Below, in pieces: positions 8,498-43,031 of a DNA stretch of 64,000 nucleotides. The notes beneath the pieces are model-generated. The model saw only the letters and a list, made by a program, of their open reading frames with translations, searched no databases and had not been told where the DNA came from. A program made the translations under genes and the position numbers. Source of the stretch: Planctomycetota bacterium (GTDB lineage Bacteria; Planctomycetota; JACOTG01); contig JACOTG010000253.1 in assembly GCA_016178505.1 (NCBI GenBank), positions 1-64,000 of the forward strand. The letters are read 5' to 3'. Each line of letters opens with the position of its first letter. Within the stretch, counting starts at the first letter, position 1.

Positions 8498-10813
8498 CTA
8501 CTGGATGTGCAGCTCCACGAGGTTCGTGATGCTGAACCCGTTCGGGTTGGCGGCCGCGTCGTCGCGGATGAACGCAAAGAGACTGCCGGTGATCGGGTGC
8601 GTCGCTCCGCCGTTGAGCCGGAAGATCGTTCCCGGCGCGGGCGGCGCGTCGGGGAGATTCGACGTGCCGAGCAGAGGCTCGTGCCGCAGTTGGTTCAGGA
8701 TCTTCAGCGGTTGCGGACTCCCTCCGGTGAACGGAGTCGGGAGGCACCCCGTGCCGAGCGAGATGCCGTTGTGCGATTGCTCCGTGACGGTCGAGCGCGT
8801 CGCAACGCCGTGGTACGCATAGAAGCAATACTTCGACGTCGAGCGCGAAGGCGGAAGACCCATCGAGATCGTGACCGGCTGACGAACGCCGACAGTCACG
8901 ATGCGGTCGGGCTCGTTGCCGAACGAGCCGTTGACGAAGAGCGTCGGCGTGATCGGCCCCGCGCCCGCGTTCACGTTGCCCGGCCTGCAGAGGATCTCCG
9001 GACCGAGGAACCGGTACGCGCCGGCGAGAGTGCCCATGCCGTTCTGATTCGAGACCACGACGTCCACCGTCGATTCCGCCGACGCCGGCGTCGTGCACGT
9101 GATCTGGTTGTCGTTGACGACGACGATGTTGGTGGCCGTGACGCCGCCGAACGTCACCGAGATCGAATGGATGCGATCGACGAATCCGAACCCGGAGATC
9201 GTGACGTTCGTGCCGACGTTTTCGGGCCCGTACTGCGGTGCAATCGTCAGAGGAGTCGGGCGATCATCGTAGTTGTAGGCGTTCCGAAGCACGTTCGAGC
9301 CGTTCGCGTTCGAGATCGTGACGTCGACGAGGTCGACGCCGGCGGGCGTGCGGCACGTGATCGTCTGGTCGTCGATGACCTGGACGTTCGTGGCCAAGTT
9401 CGCGCCGAAGCGGATGGTCGGCGCGCCGCCATTCGCGAACTGCCAACCGGTGAGCACGACGAACGTGTTGCCGGCTTCCGGACCATGGTGCGGTGAAACG
9501 CGCGCGAGTCGCGGCGCGACCGTCGACAGGAACGACGACACGCTCGGGTTCTCGTCGTCGCCGTCGAGACCGGCCGGAGTGCTTTGGACGGCCGGCGCGG
9601 TCCACAACCGCGTGTCCGGATCGTACGACGCATAGAAGATGTCGCTCGGCGGAAACGCTCCGCCCTGCGACCACCACGTGGCGAGAACGCCGCTCTTGAT
9701 CGGACAAAGCGCGATGCGGGTGTCGACGCCTCCCGTCCCGCCGAGGATGTCCTCGGTCGTGAACGACGTGCCGAGGTTGGAGTTCCACTCGAGGAATCCG
9801 TCGAGCGAATACCCGACGACGAACCCGCCGACGCCGTCCGTCGAAATCGCGGGCGAATGCGCGCGATCGAGCGCGAGCTTGTCGCCGCCGGCCGAAGTGG
9901 AGACGCCGGTCCAGCTCGCGCCGTCGAAGCTCGCGCCGGCGATGCCGGGCGAGGCGATGAGCGCGGACGTCGCCTCGCCGCCCCACGTGGCGATCGTGTT
10001 GCCCGCGGGCCCCGCGGCGAGGCCGAGTCGCGAGAACGGATCCGATGCGACCTCGAACGCGCGACCACCCGAAACGGGGATGGGCTGATTGGGCGTCCAG
10101 GTCACGCCGTTCCACGCGGAGAAGAAGACGCGCGATTGACTCACGCCGAAGCTGAGGTCGCTCCAGATCGCGACGGCCCGGTGCACGGTCGTGCCTCCGA
10201 CGATCGAGGCTTGCGAAGTGAACGCGAGCTCGGGGATCGCGGCTTGGCCAGGCCATGTCCCGGGAACCGGATTGATCGGTGCGGCGAGAGTCCACATCGA
10301 TCCGTCCCACCGGCTCGTGTAGATGACCTTGCGAACGGCATCGTCGTGCACCCAGATCGCGAAGGCCGTTCCGTCGGTGTCGAACGCAATCGCGGGATCG
10401 GAGTCGTCGCCGGCGAGCGTTGCGATCGGAAGGGCTCCGGACCACGTCGATCCATCGAAGACCGAGTACCAGATGTCGGTCGTGATCGCTGCATTCTCGG
10501 TGTCGTGCTCCCAAACGGCGAGCGCGCCGCCGGTGGGCGCGAACGCAACGGCCGGATTCACGTCATCGCCGGGAAGCGAGGAAACCGGGTCGACGAGGTC
10601 GCTACCGTTCGCGTGCCACTCGAGCCCCGCAAACGAGTTGACCTCCAGCACGGAGTAAAAGACGTCCCATCCGCCGGTCGAGGCGTCGCGGTGTTGCCAG
10701 ACGGCGACGGCGTCGTCGGATGCCGCGCGGGCGGCGGCCGCACCGGTGATGGCGACGGCGGCGAGCAGCGCGCCTCGAACGATCGACAATCTGAGCTTCG
10801 ACGATGAACGCAT
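8498..10813 (-). CDS. Secreted protein with N-terminal repeat (propeller-like) region, two IPT/TIG domains and C-terminal 'GNVN' domain
   Basis: Start at 10813 is preferred over the track start 10894 because GAGGAGGTCAATCGT precedes it and MRSSSKLRLSIVRGALLAAVAITGAAAARAA is a signal peptide; IPT motifs VSPHHGPEAGNTFVVLTGWQF and IAPQYGPENVGTNVTISGFGF. Confidence 0.85.
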   Translation of the reverse strand: MRSSSKLRLSIVRGALLAAVAITGAAAARAASDDAVAVWQHRDASTGGWDVFYSVLEVNSFAGLEWHANGSDLVDPVSSLPGDDVNPAVAFAPTGGALAVWEHDTENAAITTDIWYSVFDGSTWSGALPIATLAGDDSDPAIAFDTDGTAFAIWVHDDAVRKVIYTSRWDGSMWTLAAPINPVPGTWPGQAAIPELAFTSQASIVGGTTVHRAVAIWSDLSFGVSQSRVFFSAWNGVTWTPNQPIPVSGGRAFEVASDPFSRLGLAAGPAGNTIATWGGEATSALIASPGIAGASFDGASWTGVSTSAGGDKLALDRAHSPAISTDGVGGFVVGYSLDGFLEWNSNLGTSFTTEDILGGTGGVDTRIALCPIKSGVLATWWSQGGAFPPSDIFYASYDPDTRLWTAPAVQSTPAGLDGDDENPSVSSFLSTVAPRLARVSPHHGPEAGNTFVVLTGWQFANGGAPTIRFGANLATNVQVIDDQTITCRTPAGVDLVDVTISNANGSNVLRNAYNYDDRPTPLTIAPQYGPENVGTNVTISGFGFVDRIHSISVTFGGVTATNIVVVNDNQITCTTPASAESTVDVVVSNQNGMGTLAGAYRFLGPEILCRPGNVNAGAGPITPTLFVNGSFGNEPDRIVTVGVRQPVTISMGLPPSRSTSKYCFYAYHGVATRSTVTEQSHNGISLGTGCLPTPFTGGSPQPLKILNQLRHEPLLGTSNLPDAPPAPGTIFRLNGGATHPITGSLFAFIRDDAAANPNGFSITNLVELHIQ

Positions 10814-11156
10814 ACGATTGACCTCCTCACACCAACGAATGCCGCTCGCGCCACTTCGGCGGGCGGAACCAGCCAATTGCGCCACGGAGGGCACGACGGG
10901 AGCCGCGTCTCATCATCCGTCGAGACGATTGGACCTTGCGGCAACGCTCGCTTGCGGTCGCCATGAATGCGCGGCCGCCGATACCCCCTGAGAATGCGCG
11001 AGCCAAGATACCGGTCCGCGAGGGTGGGCGCAAGGTCGTGAGGGCGCGCACCGGCGCCGGCGACTCACCCTCACGACTCACGACTCACGACTGAAGATCG
11101 GCGATCATGGGCCGGGCCGAGCGTGACGTTTCTCGGGCGACGGTCGAGTATGAGAC

Positions 11157-14100
11157 ATGAGCATGAATGATCGGTTGTCATCGTTGGGGTTGGACCGCTT
11201 GTTCGACCGATTTCGCCGCAAGGGTGACGTCGCGGCTCTCGGCGCCGTGTTCGATCGCACCGCTTCGGAGCTCCTGCGCGTGGCCTCGACTTTCGTCCGC
11301 GATCCGGCAGAGGCCGAGGATCTCGTGCAGGCGACGTTTCTCACGGCAATCGAGCGCTCCGACCGCTACGACTCGTCGCGTCGCCTGACGGCGTGGCTGC
11401 TGGGGATTCTCGTCCACCATGCGCACGAGCTTCGGCGAAAGCACGCCCGTGAGATCGACCCGGATCGGGTCAGGTCGATGGCGTCGTTGCCGTCGCAGCC
11501 CGATGCCGAGGTCGAGGCGCGCGAGCTGTCGACGGAAGTCGAACGGGCGCTCGCCTCGCTCTCACCGAAGGACCGCGCGATCCTCGATGCCTTCCTCCGC
11601 GACGGAAAGCGAGCCGTGGACATCGCGCAGGCCGAGGGCCTTGCTCCGGGGACGGTCCGCATGCAAATCCATCGCGGGCTCGACCGTCTGAGAAAGGCGC
11701 TTCCTGCAGGGCTCGTGGGCGGAGCAGTGGTCGTTGCGGGCGGCCGCGGGCTGGCGGCCCTTCGCGCCAACGTGATGCAGCGAGCCGCGACGACTGCGGC
11801 GTCCGTCTCGGCGACGGGCGCCGCCGTCGGAGGCGGCGCTCTTCTCGGAGGATGGATCGTGAGCAAGAAAGCCGTCGTCGTCGCGCTCGGCCTCGCCCTC
11901 GTCGCCGCGATTCTCTGGCTCGCGAATCCGCGCGAGGCACGCGATGCGGCGCGTCCTTCGAACGTCGTCGCGTCGTCGAGCGCGCCGGCGCCGGCGATGA
12001 CGGCACCGACCGCAACGGTGACGATTGCGCGACCGGCCGAGGCGTCCTCCGTCGCGCGCGCTCCGTCCGCGTTCGAACGCGCGCTCGCAGGGCTGACGGG
12101 CCGGCTCGTCGAGCACGACGGAACGCCCGTTCCCGAAACGCGAATCGCGCTGGTCGAAGTGCGCGCCGAGCTTCTCGCCGATCTCTTCATCGGAAGCGTC
12201 GATCCGAATCCGCGACCGCTCGACGTCGTGGTCGCCACCGGCGTCACCGACGCCGAGGGGCGCTTTCTCCTTCGCGGCGCGCGCACGCTCGGGTCGCATG
12301 CGCTCGGCATCGATCTCGGCGGAGCCCGCGGTGCGCTGAAGTTGATCGACGCGGCGCTGCACCCCGGCGAAGTCGTCGACGTCGGCGACGTGCGGCTCGC
12401 GGCCACGGGATCGCTCTCCGGTCGAGTCGTCGACGAGCTGGGCCGGCCGGTCGCGAGGGCGCGGGTTCGCGCGGCGGAAATCCCGTCCGCGTTCCTCGAG
12501 CTGGGCGCGACCGAGGTTCGAGGAGACAGCGTCCTCGCGTGGGTCTCGGGACCGAAACCTCGCGTCGAAGAGCTGCCGCCCGCGATAGGCGCGTACGAAG
12601 ACCGCCTGCCGGTGGCGACGACGCGCACCGACGGCGAGGGACGCTTCGCGCTCGAGCGCGTCCCGGTGGGCAAGCAGGCCGTCGTCGTCGATGCGCCCGG
12701 GTTCGCGACGCTCACCGACGGCCCCATCGCGCTCGCCGAGGGCATGAGCTACTCGATGGGAGACGTTGCGATCTCGCGCGGTCTCGCCGTCCACGGATGC
12801 GTCGTCGCCGCCGACGGACGTGGCGTCGCTCGCGCGGAGGTGTGCGTCGGGCCGCTCTCGATCGTGCGAGGGATGGCGCAAACCGGTTTCGCGATCCTGC
12901 AACGTTGCGGGCGCACCGACGCGAGCGGTCGATTCGAGGCGGCCGGCGTGCGCGCGGCCGACGCCCTCGTCGTCGCGGCGCGCGACTCGGCCTCGCATCC
13001 GTGGGCGACGTCGCTCGTGCGCGACGCTTCGAGCGAGGTCATCGTGACGCTCGAGGCGGCGTCGTCCGCCGTCGTGGACGTCGTTGACGACGAGGGCGCG
13101 CCCGTCGCCGGCGTCACGTTCAGCGCTCATCCGGACTCGGGCGCGCTCGCCGGGGGGCGCGTCGGGCAATTCTCGGCGGATGTGATTTCGGCGACGCCCG
13201 ACGCGGAAGTCCACGGACGCTACCGACTCGAGGATTTGTCGCGCGGCGCCTACGCGCTCGTCGCGCGGGCGACGGATCACGCGTTCGCCGTGGTCCCGCT
13301 GCACGTCGAGGGATCTGCCGAGCCGACGCGGATCGTGCTGCCGCGCTGCGGCGGCGTTGAGATCCTCGTGCGGGACGGTCGCAGCGGCGAGCCGGTCGCA
13401 GACGCAGAGGTCACCGTGCAGCGAGTCGACGTGGCGGTCACGCCGTTGGAGATCGTGCGCACCGATGCCGACGGCATCGCACGAATCGACTGTGTCGTGC
13501 GCAGCGCAGACGTCGCCCTTCGCGTGCGCGTGGCTCATCCCGCGTATGCGACGGCGAGCGTTCCGTTCGATCCGACGACGGATCGTCACGTCGTCGCGCT
13601 TTTGCCCGGCGGCGAATTGCTCGCCCGCCTTCGCGACGGCGAGCAATTCACGCGGTCGTACGTCCTCGTCCTCGACCAGAAAGGCCCGCGCGGATTCCCG
13701 GACGGCGTGCTGACGCGGACGGGGGCGTTCGATTCGAAAGGGGCGTCGCGCCTCTCGCGGCTCGAGCCGGGGCGATGGACGTGGACGGTCCAGTTGTCGT
13801 TCGGCGACGCCTCGCCGCTCGAGCTTCTCGCCCCGCAGCACCATTCTGATTACCTGAAGAGGGGCGACGTCGAGATCGAAGAGGGCGAGACGACGGAGAT
13901 CGAGATCGTGCTCGACGGCGAACCGCGGACCCTCGTCGATCGGCAAGCGAGCGCGATGCTCGCGGGAACGGTGCGCATCAACGGCGAGCCCGCCGCGGAC
14001 GTGCGCCTCGACTTGAACCCGGAGAACGACGAAGGGCCACGCGACATGGGCGTGAAAACGAATCGCCGCGGCGCTTACGACTTCGGCGCGATCACGCCCG

Positions 14101-14804
14101 GGCGGTACAAGCTCATCGTTCGTCGCACGCAGTTGACCGAGACGTCAGGTAGGTTAGGCGAGATGGGCGCACTCGAGAAGATCGACCTTGCGTCGGGAGA
14201 GCATCGTCAATTCGACGTCGATTGGACGGTGACCGACGTCGATGTGCGAGTCGTTCGCGCGCGCGGCGGCGAGCCCGTGTCCGGCGCTCTGGTGCAGCTC
14301 CGCCCATCGAGTAGCGGTAGCGGACGCCTCCTTTCCGCGGCCTCGGCAGACGGAGACGGCCACGCGCACGTGTCCGTCTTCGCGGGCGGCTCCTACGACG
14401 TGGCTGCGCATCACGACGAGCGCGGCGTCGGCAAGGCCACGATCTGGCTCGGTGACACGCAGACCCACGCCGAGTTGACCGTCGCTCTCGACGAGGGCGT
14501 CGAGTGCTCGGGGTGGATCGTTGCCGACGAAGGGCTCCCGGTCGGCGACGGACACGTGAGGCTCTCGGTCTGGGCTTCGGGGGACGGTTACGTGCTCATC
14601 TCGTACCCGCTCGTCTTCGACGGCCGCCGGGCGCCGTTTCGCGTCGTCGGGCTCGCCCCGGGGAGCTACTACGCGAGCGTGCACATGCCCGGTGGGCAAG
14701 GCGTGGCGGTGCCGTTCGAGCTTCGCGCCGGCGGCTCCCGGACGTTCGAGTGGACGTTCGTCCCGCGGAAAGACGAGAACGAACCGGGTGCCGATCATCG
14801 CTGA
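11157..14804 (+). CDS. ECF sigma-70 factor fused through a TM helix to a long CarboxypepD_reg/Ig-like ectodomain
   Basis: 1215 aa: sigma2 (LRVASTFVRDPAEAEDLVQATFLTAI), sigma4 (LSPKDRAILDAFLRDGKRAVDIAQAEGLAPGTVRMQIHRGLDRLRKAL), TM (KKAVVVALGLALVAAILWLA), then repeated GRVVDExGxPVARARV...TDGEGRFALERVPVG-type modules. Confidence 0.88.
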   Translation: MSMNDRLSSLGLDRLFDRFRRKGDVAALGAVFDRTASELLRVASTFVRDPAEAEDLVQATFLTAIERSDRYDSSRRLTAWLLGILVHHAHELRRKHAREIDPDRVRSMASLPSQPDAEVEARELSTEVERALASLSPKDRAILDAFLRDGKRAVDIAQAEGLAPGTVRMQIHRGLDRLRKALPAGLVGGAVVVAGGRGLAALRANVMQRAATTAASVSATGAAVGGGALLGGWIVSKKAVVVALGLALVAAILWLANPREARDAARPSNVVASSSAPAPAMTAPTATVTIARPAEASSVARAPSAFERALAGLTGRLVEHDGTPVPETRIALVEVRAELLADLFIGSVDPNPRPLDVVVATGVTDAEGRFLLRGARTLGSHALGIDLGGARGALKLIDAALHPGEVVDVGDVRLAATGSLSGRVVDELGRPVARARVRAAEIPSAFLELGATEVRGDSVLAWVSGPKPRVEELPPAIGAYEDRLPVATTRTDGEGRFALERVPVGKQAVVVDAPGFATLTDGPIALAEGMSYSMGDVAISRGLAVHGCVVAADGRGVARAEVCVGPLSIVRGMAQTGFAILQRCGRTDASGRFEAAGVRAADALVVAARDSASHPWATSLVRDASSEVIVTLEAASSAVVDVVDDEGAPVAGVTFSAHPDSGALAGGRVGQFSADVISATPDAEVHGRYRLEDLSRGAYALVARATDHAFAVVPLHVEGSAEPTRIVLPRCGGVEILVRDGRSGEPVADAEVTVQRVDVAVTPLEIVRTDADGIARIDCVVRSADVALRVRVAHPAYATASVPFDPTTDRHVVALLPGGELLARLRDGEQFTRSYVLVLDQKGPRGFPDGVLTRTGAFDSKGASRLSRLEPGRWTWTVQLSFGDASPLELLAPQHHSDYLKRGDVEIEEGETTEIEIVLDGEPRTLVDRQASAMLAGTVRINGEPAADVRLDLNPENDEGPRDMGVKTNRRGAYDFGAITPGRYKLIVRRTQLTETSGRLGEMGALEKIDLASGEHRQFDVDWTVTDVDVRVVRARGGEPVSGALVQLRPSSSGSGRLLSAASADGDGHAHVSVFAGGSYDVAAHHDERGVGKATIWLGDTQTHAELTVALDEGVECSGWIVADEGLPVGDGHVRLSVWASGDGYVLISYPLVFDGRRAPFRVVGLAPGSYYASVHMPGGQGVAVPFELRAGGSRTFEWTFVPRKDENEPGADHR

Positions 14805-15131: not shown

Positions 15132-15983
15132 ATGAAGACTCCAACGCGTATCCGCGGATGGATCGTTGGCTCGATCGTCTGCGTGTCGATCGGTCTTACG
15201 CTTCTGCCGAGTGCCCATGGGCAGTTGCCGCCGTCGGTGAAGTGCGCGCGTGTCGTCTACCAGGAGAGCGGCGGGCTTCTCGGCGTGGAGAACCGGCTTT
15301 CGCTCTTCGACGACGGGCGAGTGGTCTACGCGACGGCCGACGTCCGAGGCGCGCGGACGATCGAGTGGGTCGTGCCTGCTCGCGAAGTCGATCTCCTGAA
15401 CGCGCTTTTCGTGGGAACGGAGTTCATGAAGATGCCGCCCGCCTTCAAGGCGGACGGAATCGTGATGGACGGCGTGACGTATCTGGTGACCTACAAGTCA
15501 CCGGACGGTCCGAGCCACACGGTGCAGAGCGAGACGCTCGCCGCCGAGCCGCTCGGCTTTGTAATGATCCGCGAACAGTGCGCTGCGCTCGGACGAGAGG
15601 TGCTCGACGCGGTCGTCTTCGAGATGAAAGCCCGCGGCGGGTTCGTCGGTGAGGATCATAGCCTGGTCGTGCGTGCTTCGGGCGAATGGGCCTATCGCTG
15701 CGAGACTCCGGGCCATCCGGAGCGGACGCACGACGCACGAGGCGTCTTCCCTCCGGCTCAGCTCGCACGACTGAGCGGCGCACTTCTCTCGGACGAATTC
15801 ATGTCGCTTCCCGTGTGCCTTGGCGGACACGGTGGCGCGGACGTCGTCGACTACGAGGTGAGTGCTGCGATGGACGGGGCCCATCACACGGTTCACTTCA
15901 CCGACCTCAGCCCCGCGATCCCGCACGTCTTGACGATGGTCGAGGGATCGATGAGTCGTCTGATCGCGCGTGTCGAGCCCTGA
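15132..15983 (+). CDS. Secreted hypothetical protein with two internally similar halves
   Basis: Signal peptide MKTPTRIRGWIVGSIVCVSIGLTLLPSAHG; the two halves share ...LSLFDDGRVVY...LLNALFVGTEFMKMP / LVVRASGEWAY...LSGALLSDEFMSLP. Confidence 0.7.
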   Translation: MKTPTRIRGWIVGSIVCVSIGLTLLPSAHGQLPPSVKCARVVYQESGGLLGVENRLSLFDDGRVVYATADVRGARTIEWVVPAREVDLLNALFVGTEFMKMPPAFKADGIVMDGVTYLVTYKSPDGPSHTVQSETLAAEPLGFVMIREQCAALGREVLDAVVFEMKARGGFVGEDHSLVVRASGEWAYRCETPGHPERTHDARGVFPPAQLARLSGALLSDEFMSLPVCLGGHGGADVVDYEVSAAMDGAHHTVHFTDLSPAIPHVLTMVEGSMSRLIARVEP

Positions 15984-19308: not shown

Positions 19309-19360
19309 AGTCGTGCTGGCGCTGCTCGGTGACCGCATGCCCCTGCCGCCGGGACTCTAG
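19259..19360 (+). repeat. Imperfect tandem duplication (52-bp offset) of the 3' end of the cyclase-fold gene
   Basis: tcgtgctggcgctgctcggtgaAcgcatgcccctAccgcc at 19259 and tcgtgctggcgctgctcggtgaCcgcatgcccctGccgcc at 19311. Confidence 0.9.
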
Positions 19361-21174
19361 AAGCGCACCTCGGTCTGCAGGAAGACGACGACGGCTTCGT
19401 CGCGGCGCAGGTCGAACGCTCCGCCGGGATGGAACCAGCCGACGTCGAGCTCGATCTTGAAGTTCGAGATCGCGCGCGTTCCGAGGACGAGATCGATTTC
19501 GTACCCGATGTCCGGGCTCAGGCCGTTGGTGTTCCTCCGGATTCTCGAGTGATCGCGGAATCGTTCGGCCACGGTCGATTCCTGCCGGAAGAGGTGATAG
19601 ACGAGGTCGACGGACGTCTTCTTGATCGGGTGGACGCCGACGCCGCCGGTGAAGATCTCGAGATTCGTCAGTTGGGGGTCGACGATCTCGCCGTAGTAGC
19701 GAAACGTCGTGACGCCGTTCCACCGCCCGATGTTCTGCTGGAGTCCCGTCTGTTGATAGGAGCGGTTCACGCCGTCGAACGGCGTGTCGTCACCGGTTCC
19801 CACTGCGTACGAAACCGTGATCGAGGGCTCGTAGTCGGACCGGAATACGTAAGTGACTCCGGTGTCGACGGCGTAACCGAAGTTGCGCTCTCCATCGAGG
19901 CGGCCGCGAGACATCGCCGCGTCGAGCCAATGCCGCAAGCCGCGCGTGGGCTCGGCGCGAGTGCGGATCCCGAGGTTGAAGTTCTCGAGCTCCGATTCTT
20001 GGTCGCGCCGATCGACGATGAACGCCGCAACCTCGGTCTTCGGTCCGAAATGCCACGAAGCGTTGCCGATGTAGTCGGTCACGTCGCGGTCCGAGGCGGG
20101 AGCGTCGAACAAGACTTCGCCGACGGATGCTTCGAGAAGGAGCGGGCCGAACTTGCCGAAGGCTCGAAGCGCATCGAGCTGCTTCTTGTAGAGCCACTGC
20201 CGGTCGTCCTCGAAGTCCTGGCGGCCGATCTCGACGTCGAACGGCAGATCCCATGGCTCCTTGGCAAAAACGAACAGCTCCCGCATTCCCGTTCGCTCGA
20301 TGTCATCGAGGTTTCGATCCTGATCGTAGATCACGTCGTTTCGCTGCGTGCGGAAGTCGGCGAACGCAAGAACGTGATCCGAGACTTCCGCGGTGGCCTC
20401 GAGATCCAGGATCTCTCGACTGCGGCCGGTGTCGCCGTGCCTCGTTCGATCGAGGTCGAAGTTCACTTCCAAGCGCGTGTCCCAACGCCCGCGCGCGCCG
20501 AACTTGAGCGGTCCGAGGCGCAACCGCGGCGCGCGGGGCAGGCTCGAGGTTCCCGCGCGATATCCGAGCTCCCCGTGACGGCGAACGACGCGGGGTCCGT
20601 CGGGATACACGACGGGGTCGTCGGGTGGGCGCTGCAGCCACTCGACATCGATGCCGAGGAGTTTGAGCTTGCGCGGTGATTCGTCGGAAGGACCGATCCA
20701 CTCGATCGAGCCTTCGAGCTTCTCGATGCCTTGCTGGCGACCGCCGGAAACGACCTTGATTCGGCGCGCTCGGAACCGCTTTCCGTTTCGCGGCTTGCCC
20801 TCGACGCGTACCCACTCTCCAACGCGAAGGCTGCCGATCGTGATCTTCCGTTTCTTGGCGCTCTCGACGACGAGCGGCTTCGACTCGTAGGGCACGACCG
20901 TGAATCCGAGAACGTCGAGCGACGGCTTTCCCGGATCGACCGCACGAATGAATCCCCAGAGCGTGTCCGTGGTACGGGCCTTTCGGCGGACGAGGTCCCA
21001 AGACTCGAACACGCCGTCGTCGCGGAAACGTCCCGTGAGCTTGACGCGAGATCCCACGCGAAGCTCGCGAGAGCCATCGGCATCGGGCGTCTGTGCGCGA
21101 GCGGGAGATCCCATCGCGAAAAAAACGACGCCGATGAGCGCTGCCCCGCGAAGGGCTGCGCGCATCGGCGTCAT
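19357..21174 (-). CDS. Outer-membrane beta-barrel protein, AlgE/alginate-export-like, with N-terminal OB/DUF5666-like region
   Basis: 605 aa: signal peptide; VDPGKPSLDVLGFTVV..., LFVFAKEPWDLPFDVEIGRQDFEDDRQWLYKKQLDALRAF..., C-terminal FLQTEVRF. Confidence 0.8.
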   Translation of the reverse strand: MTPMRAALRGAALIGVVFFAMGSPARAQTPDADGSRELRVGSRVKLTGRFRDDGVFESWDLVRRKARTTDTLWGFIRAVDPGKPSLDVLGFTVVPYESKPLVVESAKKRKITIGSLRVGEWVRVEGKPRNGKRFRARRIKVVSGGRQQGIEKLEGSIEWIGPSDESPRKLKLLGIDVEWLQRPPDDPVVYPDGPRVVRRHGELGYRAGTSSLPRAPRLRLGPLKFGARGRWDTRLEVNFDLDRTRHGDTGRSREILDLEATAEVSDHVLAFADFRTQRNDVIYDQDRNLDDIERTGMRELFVFAKEPWDLPFDVEIGRQDFEDDRQWLYKKQLDALRAFGKFGPLLLEASVGEVLFDAPASDRDVTDYIGNASWHFGPKTEVAAFIVDRRDQESELENFNLGIRTRAEPTRGLRHWLDAAMSRGRLDGERNFGYAVDTGVTYVFRSDYEPSITVSYAVGTGDDTPFDGVNRSYQQTGLQQNIGRWNGVTTFRYYGEIVDPQLTNLEIFTGGVGVHPIKKTSVDLVYHLFRQESTVAERFRDHSRIRRNTNGLSPDIGYEIDLVLGTRAISNFKIELDVGWFHPGGAFDLRRDEAVVVFLQTEVRF

Positions 21175-21187
21175 GGGGTCGACGATT

Positions 21188-22660
21188 TCAGTAGACTCGG
21201 AATTCGTAGAAGTCGGTGTCGAGGACGGCGCCGGTTCCCGGATCCGTGACGGTCACGAACACTCGGACCGGCACGCGAAGGAAGCGCGGACGCAGGTTGC
21301 CCGGCACGTGGGATTGAAGAGGGCCAACCGTCGTCGTCCCCGGGCCCGCCGGAAGGGATCGCGAGGTCTGCGGCACGAGCGTCCGAACGATCGAATTGTT
21401 GAACGCCTTGCCGACGACGGTGTAGTTCACCGTCCGAGCCGAACCCGTGTTGTTCCGGAGGTTGATCGAGTAGTGGATGAAACCACCGACCGTCGTGCCG
21501 ACGTCGGCTGGGACGATGTCGCACGTGACGTTCGACGTCTGGAGCGCGAAGTCCTGCGTGCGATCCCCGGTGATCGAGAGGTTCTCGAGGAAGACGTGCT
21601 TGAAGCCCGAGGGGCTCAGCACATCGACATAGAGGTCGTCCGATCCGCTGGGAACGATCGTCGAATAGACGCCGGTCGCGTCGGTGACGTCGCCTTGGAT
21701 CGGCACTCCCGCGTCGTTCGAAGAGTAAGCGTCGAGGTTGATCCGCGACACCGGCGATCCCGCCGCCGTCACCGTGCCGGTGACGTTGAATCCCGCGACG
21801 ACGTTGATCGTGCCGATGTTGGCATCCGAGACCACGTCTACTTTGAGGACGCGCGCGGGTACGAGCCGCGACCCAACCGTGGGCTGAGTGTCGATGTCGA
21901 ACGAGCCCTGCGGAAGAATGATGCTGAAGTTGCCGAGCCCGTCCGTGTTGTCTCCGACGAGGCGAATCGACGCGCCCGTGAACGTGTCCCGGGCGTCCAT
22001 GTCTGCGCCCACGACGCTCGCGTTGCCCGGTCCTGCCACCCGACCGGTGATCTGGAACCCGTTGTCGAGGTTGACGATGCCGAACGACGTGTCGCCCGAA
22101 ATCGTGATGCCCGGCAGCACTCGTCCGACGAGAAACGTGGACTGCGGCGGGTCGATCGCAATGTCGTACGTTCCCGGCGGGACGATCACGTCCACGAAGC
22201 CCGAGAGATCCGAGTTGTCGCCGGGCGTGTACCGCTTCACGCCGTCAGACGTGCGAATCGCGTCGATGTCGACGGCGTCGACGGGAAACCCGCCCGAGTC
22301 GTGAATGGTTCCCGACAGAACGAATCCGTGTTGGACGATCAGCGTGCCCATGTTGAGGTCGCCGGGGACCACGACGGCCTTGATCTCGAGTCCCGCGAGG
22401 CGATCCGCGAATTGCGGGATGACGTGCACGTCGATCGTGCCGGTCGGCACCGTGAACGCGAAGTTCCCGCTCACGTCCGTGTGGTCCAGCGTCGTCGCGA
22501 TCTGCGTTCCGGTGGCACTGTCGAACACGTTGACGTTTGCGTCGAAGACTGGATTGACTCCGTCCGTCACATGGCCGGACAGTATCGCCGCCTGTGCCGT
22601 CGTGAAGAACGACGCGGCGCCGAGGAGGGTCATTCCAAAGGTGAATAACGAAGGCTTCAT
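21188..22660 (-). CDS. Secreted CarboxypepD_reg-like repeat protein
   Basis: 490 aa: signal peptide; repeats VTDGVNPVFDANVNVFDSATGTQIATTLDHTDVSGNFAFTVPTGTIDVHVIP... Confidence 0.8.
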   Translation of the reverse strand: MKPSLFTFGMTLLGAASFFTTAQAAILSGHVTDGVNPVFDANVNVFDSATGTQIATTLDHTDVSGNFAFTVPTGTIDVHVIPQFADRLAGLEIKAVVVPGDLNMGTLIVQHGFVLSGTIHDSGGFPVDAVDIDAIRTSDGVKRYTPGDNSDLSGFVDVIVPPGTYDIAIDPPQSTFLVGRVLPGITISGDTSFGIVNLDNGFQITGRVAGPGNASVVGADMDARDTFTGASIRLVGDNTDGLGNFSIILPQGSFDIDTQPTVGSRLVPARVLKVDVVSDANIGTINVVAGFNVTGTVTAAGSPVSRINLDAYSSNDAGVPIQGDVTDATGVYSTIVPSGSDDLYVDVLSPSGFKHVFLENLSITGDRTQDFALQTSNVTCDIVPADVGTTVGGFIHYSINLRNNTGSARTVNYTVVGKAFNNSIVRTLVPQTSRSLPAGPGTTTVGPLQSHVPGNLRPRFLRVPVRVFVTVTDPGTGAVLDTDFYEFRVY

Positions 22661-41280: not shown

Positions 41281-42228
41281 CTACCTCAGCGCGAGCTTCC
41301 AGCACTCGAGCATCGACTTGTCGAGCCGAAGGATGCCCGCCCGCGTAACTCCATCCGGCGGCTCGCAATGGGCGACCATCTTGTCGTAGACCCGCTCGCG
41401 CTCGACTCCGTCGACGCGGGACAGAAGGTGCCACAGCGTGAGGTTGTCGATCTCGCGCGCAGCGTCCAGCACTTCGTGGAGCGCTGCGCTGCCGCCTTTC
41501 TCGAAGTCGAATCGATAGAGCGCTCGCTGCAGCGCTTCGGGTGCGTCGCGCATGAACGGCGTTCCGGGGCCGATTCCCGGCCGCGTGCGACACTCGGCGT
41601 TCTTGATCACGTACGACTCGCGTCCATCGCGCTCGAACGACACCCATCCGGAGCTGACCGAAAGCACACCCGCACCCGTACGGTCGACTTCCAACGTGTA
41701 AGCGCACCCGAGATCGACGGCAACGGCCGACGGCGTCTCGACCAGGAACAGGCGCGGCGGCGCATAGACCTTCGCGCTGATCGAGCCGTGCGCGAGATTG
41801 AGGCGGTGCTCGTCGCGACCCGTCGCAACGAGGCCGATGCGCGTGTCCGGCTCGACGTCGACGTGGCCGATGTTGGCGGCGTCGATGCGCGCGCGCGATT
41901 TGCCGTCGGTCTCGAGCCATTCGCCGATGCCGAGCTTCGCCGATCCGTCGAACGCCGTCGTCCCAACGCATGGCGCCCCATCGACGCGCGAGACGTCCCA
42001 CGCCGCGCCCGGCGCGGAATGCGGACGCGAGAGGCTCACGACGAACGCGACGACCGCGGCGGCGGCGACGAACGCCGCAACCCACAACCATCGGCGGATG
42101 CGATTGCGAGAAGCGGTGGCGACGTCGGGCGCCGGTCGATCGTAGCGAAGCGTCCCGAGAACCCGTTCCAGACGCTGGACCTCGGGGTCCGGCTCGCCGG
42201 ATCGATCCCACAGGTACGAATCGCTCAT
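41281..42228 (-). CDS. FecR-domain anti-sigma/regulatory membrane protein
   Basis: 315 aa; single TM; GIGEWLETDGKSRARIDAANIGHVDVEPDTRIGLV...LNLAHGSISAKVYAPPRLFLVETPSAVAVDLGCAYTLEVD. Confidence 0.88.
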   Translation of the reverse strand: MSDSYLWDRSGEPDPEVQRLERVLGTLRYDRPAPDVATASRNRIRRWLWVAAFVAAAAVVAFVVSLSRPHSAPGAAWDVSRVDGAPCVGTTAFDGSAKLGIGEWLETDGKSRARIDAANIGHVDVEPDTRIGLVATGRDEHRLNLAHGSISAKVYAPPRLFLVETPSAVAVDLGCAYTLEVDRTGAGVLSVSSGWVSFERDGRESYVIKNAECRTRPGIGPGTPFMRDAPEALQRALYRFDFEKGGSAALHEVLDAAREIDNLTLWHLLSRVDGVERERVYDKMVAHCEPPDGVTRAGILRLDKSMLECWKLALR

Positions 42229-42232
42229 GTGA

Positions 42233-42778
42233 TCACTCCAAACCCGGAAGTCCGAGTTTTTCGCGAAGCTGCTTCATGCCGCGGCACAAGTTGACGCGCA
42301 CGGACCCCGGCGTCAGGCCCGTCCTCTCCGCGATCTCGGGGCCGGTCATCCCTTCGACGAGGCGAAGGATCAAGGTCTCTCGATAGGCCTCTGGAAGCTC
42401 GCGAACGACGGCGAGCATCTCCTCGGCTTCGGCCCGGCTTGCGTGCGTCGGGCCCGCTCGCGCCATGTCGTCCTTCAACTCCTCCACCTTCCGCATGCGG
42501 CGCCGAAAGTCGCTCGCGCGGTTGCGGGCGATGACGGCGAGCCACGACCCGAACGTCCCGGCATCGCGCAGAGTGTGCAGCTTGCGCAGCGCCATCACGA
42601 AGACGTCCTGCACGAGGTCGTCGGCCTCGCGTCGCGGGCCGCGCGCCAGCAGGATGCCGTGCACCATGCGCGCGTAGAGGTCGTGGAGTCGGCCGAATGC
42701 GAGGCGATCGCCGGCACACGCAGAGCGCACGAGATCGGCGTCGTCGGTCGTTGCGACCGGCGCCGTTCGCGAAGGCAT
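42233..42778 (-). CDS. ECF RNA polymerase sigma factor
   Basis: LVRSACAGDRLAFGRLHDLYARMVHGILLARGPRREADDLVQDVFVMALRKL...ELPEAYRETLILRLVEGMTGPEIAERTGLTPGSVRVNLCRGMKQLREKL. Confidence 0.92.
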   Translation of the reverse strand: MPSRTAPVATTDDADLVRSACAGDRLAFGRLHDLYARMVHGILLARGPRREADDLVQDVFVMALRKLHTLRDAGTFGSWLAVIARNRASDFRRRMRKVEELKDDMARAGPTHASRAEAEEMLAVVRELPEAYRETLILRLVEGMTGPEIAERTGLTPGSVRVNLCRGMKQLREKLGLPGLE

Positions 42779-43031
42779 TTGCTCGAACACGATGATAGGG
42801 TGGCCGAGGTGAGGGCCCCGGTCAATGCTCGCCGAAGTGCCGCGCACGACCCACGAAACCGTTCATGACTGGTACTCCTCGATTCGGGGGACCGAACAGG
42901 GACGCCGAGTTGCGGGCCGGCGTTAACGCCGCGAGGGCCGCGTTCATTGGTCATTTGTCTTTCGGGGTCGTTCTGCTAGCTTTTTCGGCCGATCGCCGAT
43001 CGTTCGCCGACCCAAAGGAACTGGAGGACTC

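Follow-up and report, generated by a model that had tools for sequence, protein, structure and literature searches.

Few proteins are known in which a sigma factor is fused to its regulator. IutY of Pseudomonas putida is an ECF243 sigma/anti-sigma fusion of 374 aa, whose anti-sigma domain, of the CSS type, lies in the periplasm and which is partnered by an outer-membrane receptor (PMC5411451, PMC8999054). It is the only ECF fusion whose proteolytic activation has been experimentally characterized (PMC8999054); its sigma domain is freed by Prc and RseP (PMC5411451). ECF52, represented by SCO4117 of Streptomyces, has a zinc-finger domain, a proline-rich stretch and a carbohydrate-binding module and was described as exclusive to Actinobacteria (PMC5826349), and ECF48, ECF52 and ECF53 are expected to work via proteolytic release (PMC8999054, PMC5826349). 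The large C-terminal extensions of ECF57 and the planctomycete ECF-WD40 proteins contain WD40 repeats, a pair of conserved cysteines connects their sigma2 with sigma4, and some Tuwongella ECF sigma factors have been found in Triton or SDS fractions (PMC8999054, PMC8567305). The SigI/RsgI systems of Clostridium thermocellum use several membrane sensors for different substrates, with sigma release via transmembrane cleavage by RseP (PMC12203970). As a kind, the C-terminally extended, membrane-anchored ECF sigma factor is already known.

Here we describe a gene for a membrane-anchored ECF sigma factor of 1215 aa at 11157..14804 (+) of a 64,000-nucleotide stretch of a Planctomycetota bacterium genome, called the window below. 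Like IutY, it joins an ECF sigma factor, a transmembrane (TM) helix and a periplasmic part in one chain without a separate anti-sigma factor. Unlike IutY, it has about 950 extracytoplasmic residues of CarboxypepD/Ig-like character, and a FecR-type domain, a feature of IutY that is present in a two-gene cousin (L190, see below), gave no match at E up to 1. With ECF52, and also ECF48 and ECF53, it shares the order of sigma factor, TM helix and long extracytoplasmic extension, which in ECF52 holds possible ligand-binding modules. The zinc finger that ECF52 has between sigma4 and the TM helix was absent from the Pfam matches at E up to 1, residues 1–258 contain no Cys, and the source is Planctomycetota, not Actinobacteria. 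ECF57 and ECF-WD40 proteins are likewise planctomycete ECFs with a large C-terminal extension, but the 1215-aa protein gave no Pfam match to WD40 repeats at E up to 1 and lacks the sigma2/sigma4 cysteine pair. SigI/RsgI differs in being two proteins, in belonging to the sigmaI family instead of the ECFs, and in coming from Firmicutes. Our literature search found no description of ECF-CarboxypepD_reg fusions. The main ECF classification papers were outside its scope, so this group may be numbered there already; the features described here set it apart from ECF57, ECF52 and IutY.

Architecture of the 1215-residue protein

The gene begins with ATG and runs as a single open frame of 1215 codons with no internal stop, and its GC content by codon position (0.75/0.52/0.83) gives a coding bias like that of neighboring genes. 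Gene calls throughout were made without a trained gene finder, TM assignments are hydropathy based, and all features in this section lie on the + strand. Sigma region 2 (residues 32–98, 11250..11450) scores 47.6 bits with Pfam Sigma70_r2 (cut-off 24), at coordinates also matched in a genome-wide Sigma70_r2 search, and sigma region 4 (residues 127–178, 11535..11690) scores 31.0 bits with Sigma70_r4_2 (cut-off 25.7). By Pfam the protein has sigma2 and sigma4 without sigma1.1 or sigma3, the makeup of an ECF (group 4) sigma factor, and the NCBIfam sigma70-ECF model TIGR02937 matches at 76.1 bits against a cut-off of 42.9. Among the best 25 NCBIfam matches, the group-specific models all fell below their own cut-offs. 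AlphaFold predicts both sigma regions as helical and confident, with pLDDT of about 80–91 in the sigma4 helices.

Sigma4 is followed by the motif LP-x-G-L...R-G-L-A-A-L-R-x-x-V (residues 182–210, 11700..11786), recognized from conserved columns, and by a variable Ala/Gly-rich linker (residues 211–238, 11787..11870; pLDDT <50) that ends in SKK right before a single predicted TM helix (residues 239–257, 11871..11927). This is the one strong hydrophobic stretch, at 2.44 on the Kyte-Doolittle scale over 19 residues; a scan of the whole chain on that scale gave no second TM-like stretch, and AlphaFold places a helix at 238–255. Beyond it come a low-complexity stalk rich in Ala, Pro, Ser and Thr, predicted to be periplasmic and mostly disordered in AlphaFold (residues 258–308, 11928..12080), and an ectodomain assigned by Pfam and AlphaFold to tandem CarboxypepD_reg, transthyretin-like and Ig-like beta-sandwiches (residues 309–1206, 12081..14774; about 900 residues). 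CarboxypepD_reg matches at 136.8 bits over 8 stretches (Pfam cut-off 32.3), the repeated modules of a CarboxypepD_reg-like protein, and DUF4198, SdrD_B and Ig_DR_A0283-like also pass their Pfam cut-offs. The AlphaFold ectodomain is almost wholly beta, at moderate confidence, and Foldseek returned for it only generic tandem or multi-domain Ig-like surface proteins, with low TM-scores. No recognizable anti-sigma domain, neither a zinc-binding ZAS nor a FecR domain, was detected in the chain by Pfam.

The layout proposed in an earlier note on this DNA, an uninterrupted 1215-codon frame encoding sigma2, sigma4, a linker, a TM helix and beta modules, is thus confirmed by the frame, by Pfam (Sigma70_r2, Sigma70_r4_2 and CarboxypepD_reg all over curated cut-offs), by hydropathy and by AlphaFold. 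That a single polypeptide would hold its sigma domain inside and its ectodomain outside is supported by the logic of the sequence.

The segment after sigma4 differs between groups of fused sigma factors. In the clade that contains the 1215-aa protein (class A, see below), P183, L199, R203 and V206 are invariant across 8 sequences, and mean column identity over 20 sequences is 0.62 in sigma2, 0.58 in sigma4, 0.48 in residues 180–210 and 0.35 in the linker beyond. Class B has another conserved segment at the equivalent place, GGDRRAW-LAL-PLA. Judged on sequence, residues 182–210 are the best candidate for built-in inhibition, or for docking, and we propose that the class-A and class-B segments may keep the sigma factor inactive. 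The AlphaFold model, in which this region has low confidence and is not docked on the sigma domain, speaks neither for nor against this proposal.

Relatives in other genomes and paralogues in the source genome

Full-length relatives occur in three other planctomycete MAGs, all titled Planctomycetota or Planctomycetaceae (L110, L111 and L115; 1194, 1191 and 1151 aa from their own ATG), with 30–33% identity over residues 2–1203. Because these align end to end and come from other assemblies, 11157..14804 is no assembly artefact, and a frameshift or a join of two genes, which the earlier note had named as grounds for refutation, is ruled out. A class-A sigma domain together with significant similarity to the 1215-aa ectodomain was found at six further loci in five other genomes (L232, L237, L239, L241, L242 and L243). 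The three orthologues compared share no conserved gene neighbors, as expected for an autonomous unit, and synteny supports no operon or regulon inference. When 343 genomes of the phylum were scanned with a class-A model, scoring seven candidates per genome so that counts are lower bounds, at least 80 matches at E <1e-40 were found in at least 31 genomes, and at least 74 of them sit in frames of at least 500 aa. A head-to-tail array of four genes for membrane-anchored class-A sigma factors, with frames of about 930–1030 aa, lies on one strand at L230:1400-13116 (G154:C1:4803500-4819000). A plasmid search gave ordinary ECFs only, among the matches listed.

The source genome (G000) is a 7.16 Mb assembly in 313 contigs, 92% complete and 3% contaminated. 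It has 94 Sigma70_r2 matches, whose neighborhoods were fetched, and 87 sigma genes were examined: 23 are fused (sigma factor, linker, TM helix, ectodomain), 61 are bare, and 3 have a long tail in which no TM helix is strongly called; two of these 3 share a clade with fused genes. A fused layout was defined as a sigma factor with one TM helix 22–59 residues past sigma4 and then a long tail. The 1215-aa sigma factor is one among at least 23 fusions in the same genome, a member of a large paralogous class and not a single oddity. Ectodomains diverge strongly among these paralogues while the sigma part is conserved. A CarboxypepD_reg ectodomain was present in 18 of the 24 other members scanned. 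The rest differ; in L112 and L063, for instance, the ectodomain has no known domain, and L106:3715-7167 (G040, another genome) encodes a membrane-anchored ECF whose C-terminal part bears ankyrin repeats.

In a tree of the sigma domains, the fused proteins form clades A (with the 1215-aa protein; SH-aLRT 98), B (93) and C (96), plus one to four outliers, and class A is one clade spread across many planctomycetes. A single origin of all fused sigma factors is not rejected (p-AU 0.81, in a tree built after dropping three rows on long branches and seven that were truncated or ambiguous), and we therefore make no claim of independent repeated fusions, which a first tree had hinted at.

Two further observations concern the source genome. 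A decayed close paralogue, L067:1487-2013 (G000:C73), has 61% identity to residues 3–132 of the 1215-aa protein and is followed 2 nt later, in another frame, by a piece matching residues 1153–1203, as if about 1000 residues had been lost. CarboxypepD_reg has at least 151 matches in the genome, in several dense clusters (e.g. C88, C15 and C31), some of them beside fused sigma genes.

Partner genes of fused and bare sigma factors

The earlier note had stated that no separate anti-sigma gene is adjacent, and this held for both neighbors: the upstream gene 8498..10894 lies on the opposite strand and encodes a TIG domain, and the downstream gene 15132..15983, 327 nt away, is without an anti-sigma domain. 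The window itself offers a control: a canonical ECF at 42233..42847 (-) has the gene for a FecR-type TM protein, 41281..42228 (-), right behind it. Across the source genome, in a census of adjacent genes only, a TM gene adjoins 31 of the 61 bare ECFs but 0 of the 23 fused sigma factors (Fisher p = 5e-6); where a downstream gene could be called, the counts are 31/51 and 0/14, respectively. The spacing from a bare ECF to its single-TM protein is mostly -14 to +30 nt, the canonical anti-sigma arrangement. Class-A relatives in other genomes have a TM ORF within 60 nt in only 3 of 36 cases, which, with the contrast inside the source genome, strengthens the reading that the fused proteins lack a partner anti-sigma gene.

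Two-gene versions of the same parts, intermediate in form, also exist in the source genome. In C70 (L190), an ECF lies 13 nt before the gene for a 781-aa protein with a TM helix, FecR and CarboxypepD modules; this pair resembles the 1215-aa protein in having an ECF, a single TM helix and a CarboxypepD ectodomain, and differs in being two adjacent genes and in having FecR between the TM helix and the CarboxypepD modules. In C283 (L072), an ECF overlaps by 4 nt a gene for a 1009-aa protein with a TM helix and eight CarboxypepD stretches. Ectodomains most like that of the 1215-aa protein occur, too, in TM-anchored proteins without a sigma domain in three other genomes. The fused, two-gene and sigma-less forms would fit a possible merger of a sigma factor with a membrane regulator or sensor. 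The simplest reading is that the sigma factor and its membrane regulator or sensor sit on one chain, apparently replacing the two-gene sigma/anti-sigma pair.

Proteins of about 1000 aa with similar ectodomains and a TM anchor (L091, L092, L093, L094 and L095) have neither a sigma domain nor a sigma gene in the fetched stretch. Elsewhere in the window, at 19357..22660 (-), an Alginate_exp-type outer membrane protein (19357..21174) adjoins a 490-aa protein with one CarboxypepD_reg (21188..22660).

Proposed mechanism, alternatives and promoters

We think that the 1215-aa protein is probably a one-chain transmembrane ECF sigma factor, whose cytoplasmic sigma domain is held by the tether and the post-sigma4 segment, whose ectodomain senses, and whose activation is by proteolytic release. 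Sigma2 and sigma4 would be cytoplasmic, followed by the post-sigma4 segment, the flexible linker and one TM helix, with the beta-sandwich ectodomain beyond the inner membrane. The tether and post-sigma4 segment would silence the sigma factor, the job that falls to a separate membrane anti-sigma factor beside bare ECFs; the ectodomain would sense an envelope or extracellular ligand; and, after an outer cut, a site-2 (M50) protease would cleave within or close to the TM helix and free the sigma domain, as in IutY. Our confidence falls along these steps, from silencing through ligand sensing to proteolytic release. With IutY as precedent, regulated intramembrane proteolysis is a plausible route of release. 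M50 proteases are found at several loci of the source genome, and because such proteases are universal and expected in any bacterium, their presence is weak evidence for cleavage.

The chief rival is that the protein acts while tethered, in the manner of ToxR or CadC: a ligand would alter the post-sigma4 segment, and the uncleaved protein would recruit RNA polymerase at the membrane. We give this a modest chance. Single-pass is the commonest topology of transmembrane transcription regulators (PMC10269533), and the linker, with about 55 mostly variable residues, is long. Against it, a sigma factor needs to bind the core RNA polymerase and normally leaves it in elongation, and the characterized fused sigma factor IutY requires RseP (PMC5411451), though the computed data suit both modes of action. 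It is rather unlikely that the ectodomain is instead a structural or adhesive surface protein whose failed folding or insertion frees the sigma factor via degradation, as a form of envelope quality control. The sigma-less TM-anchored proteins of the same ectodomain lineage, the abundance of CarboxypepD_reg proteins in the genome and the resemblance of this fold to pilins and adhesins would all suit such a role, but ectodomains that differ strongly beside a conserved sigma part are a better fit to separate inputs than to a single, general check of quality.

Control by a separate anti-sigma factor whose gene lies in another part of the genome, with the TM ectodomain as a co-receptor only, is improbable: the census looked at adjacent genes, which leaves room for a distant partner, but the anti-sigma gene of an ECF is as a rule its neighbor (PMC8103513), and a TM gene adjoins 31/61 bare ECFs against 0/23 fused ones. 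We regard as very improbable a decayed sigma domain retained as a membrane-anchored DNA- or protein-binding module; the C73 paralogue is clearly decayed, but in the 1215-aa protein both sigma regions pass Pfam cut-offs, and no other part of the class-A proteins is as well conserved as these two.

A broader picture can be put forward tentatively, in which planctomycetes at large possess autonomous transmembrane sigma-factor receptors: a short group-specific post-sigma4 peptide would replace the anti-sigma domain, the ectodomain would be freely exchanged, and a single species could have more than 20 one-protein pathways from the outside to the promoter, making up about a quarter of its ECFs. A family with at least 23 copies in one genome and a phylum-wide layout would make one-chain sigma signaling a main route and not a curiosity. 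The conserved post-sigma4 segment, being short, lends itself to deletion or transplantation, which would allow a direct test of sigma silencing without a recognizable anti-sigma domain, and similar ectodomains that occur in fused, two-gene and sigma-less form offer a natural series on the origin of such pathways.

An autoregulatory promoter upstream of 11157, as the earlier note had suggested, was not found with either an ECF-type pattern or TGAACC. The ECF-type pattern GAAC-N15-18-CGT was present upstream of 0/23 fused genes and is not enriched, and a two-block Gibbs search returned common genomic words only. Upstream of class-B fused genes in the source genome, TGAACC was found in 5 of 17 cases against 0.43 expected, slightly above the shuffled maxima, and is possibly an ECF -35-like element of those genes.
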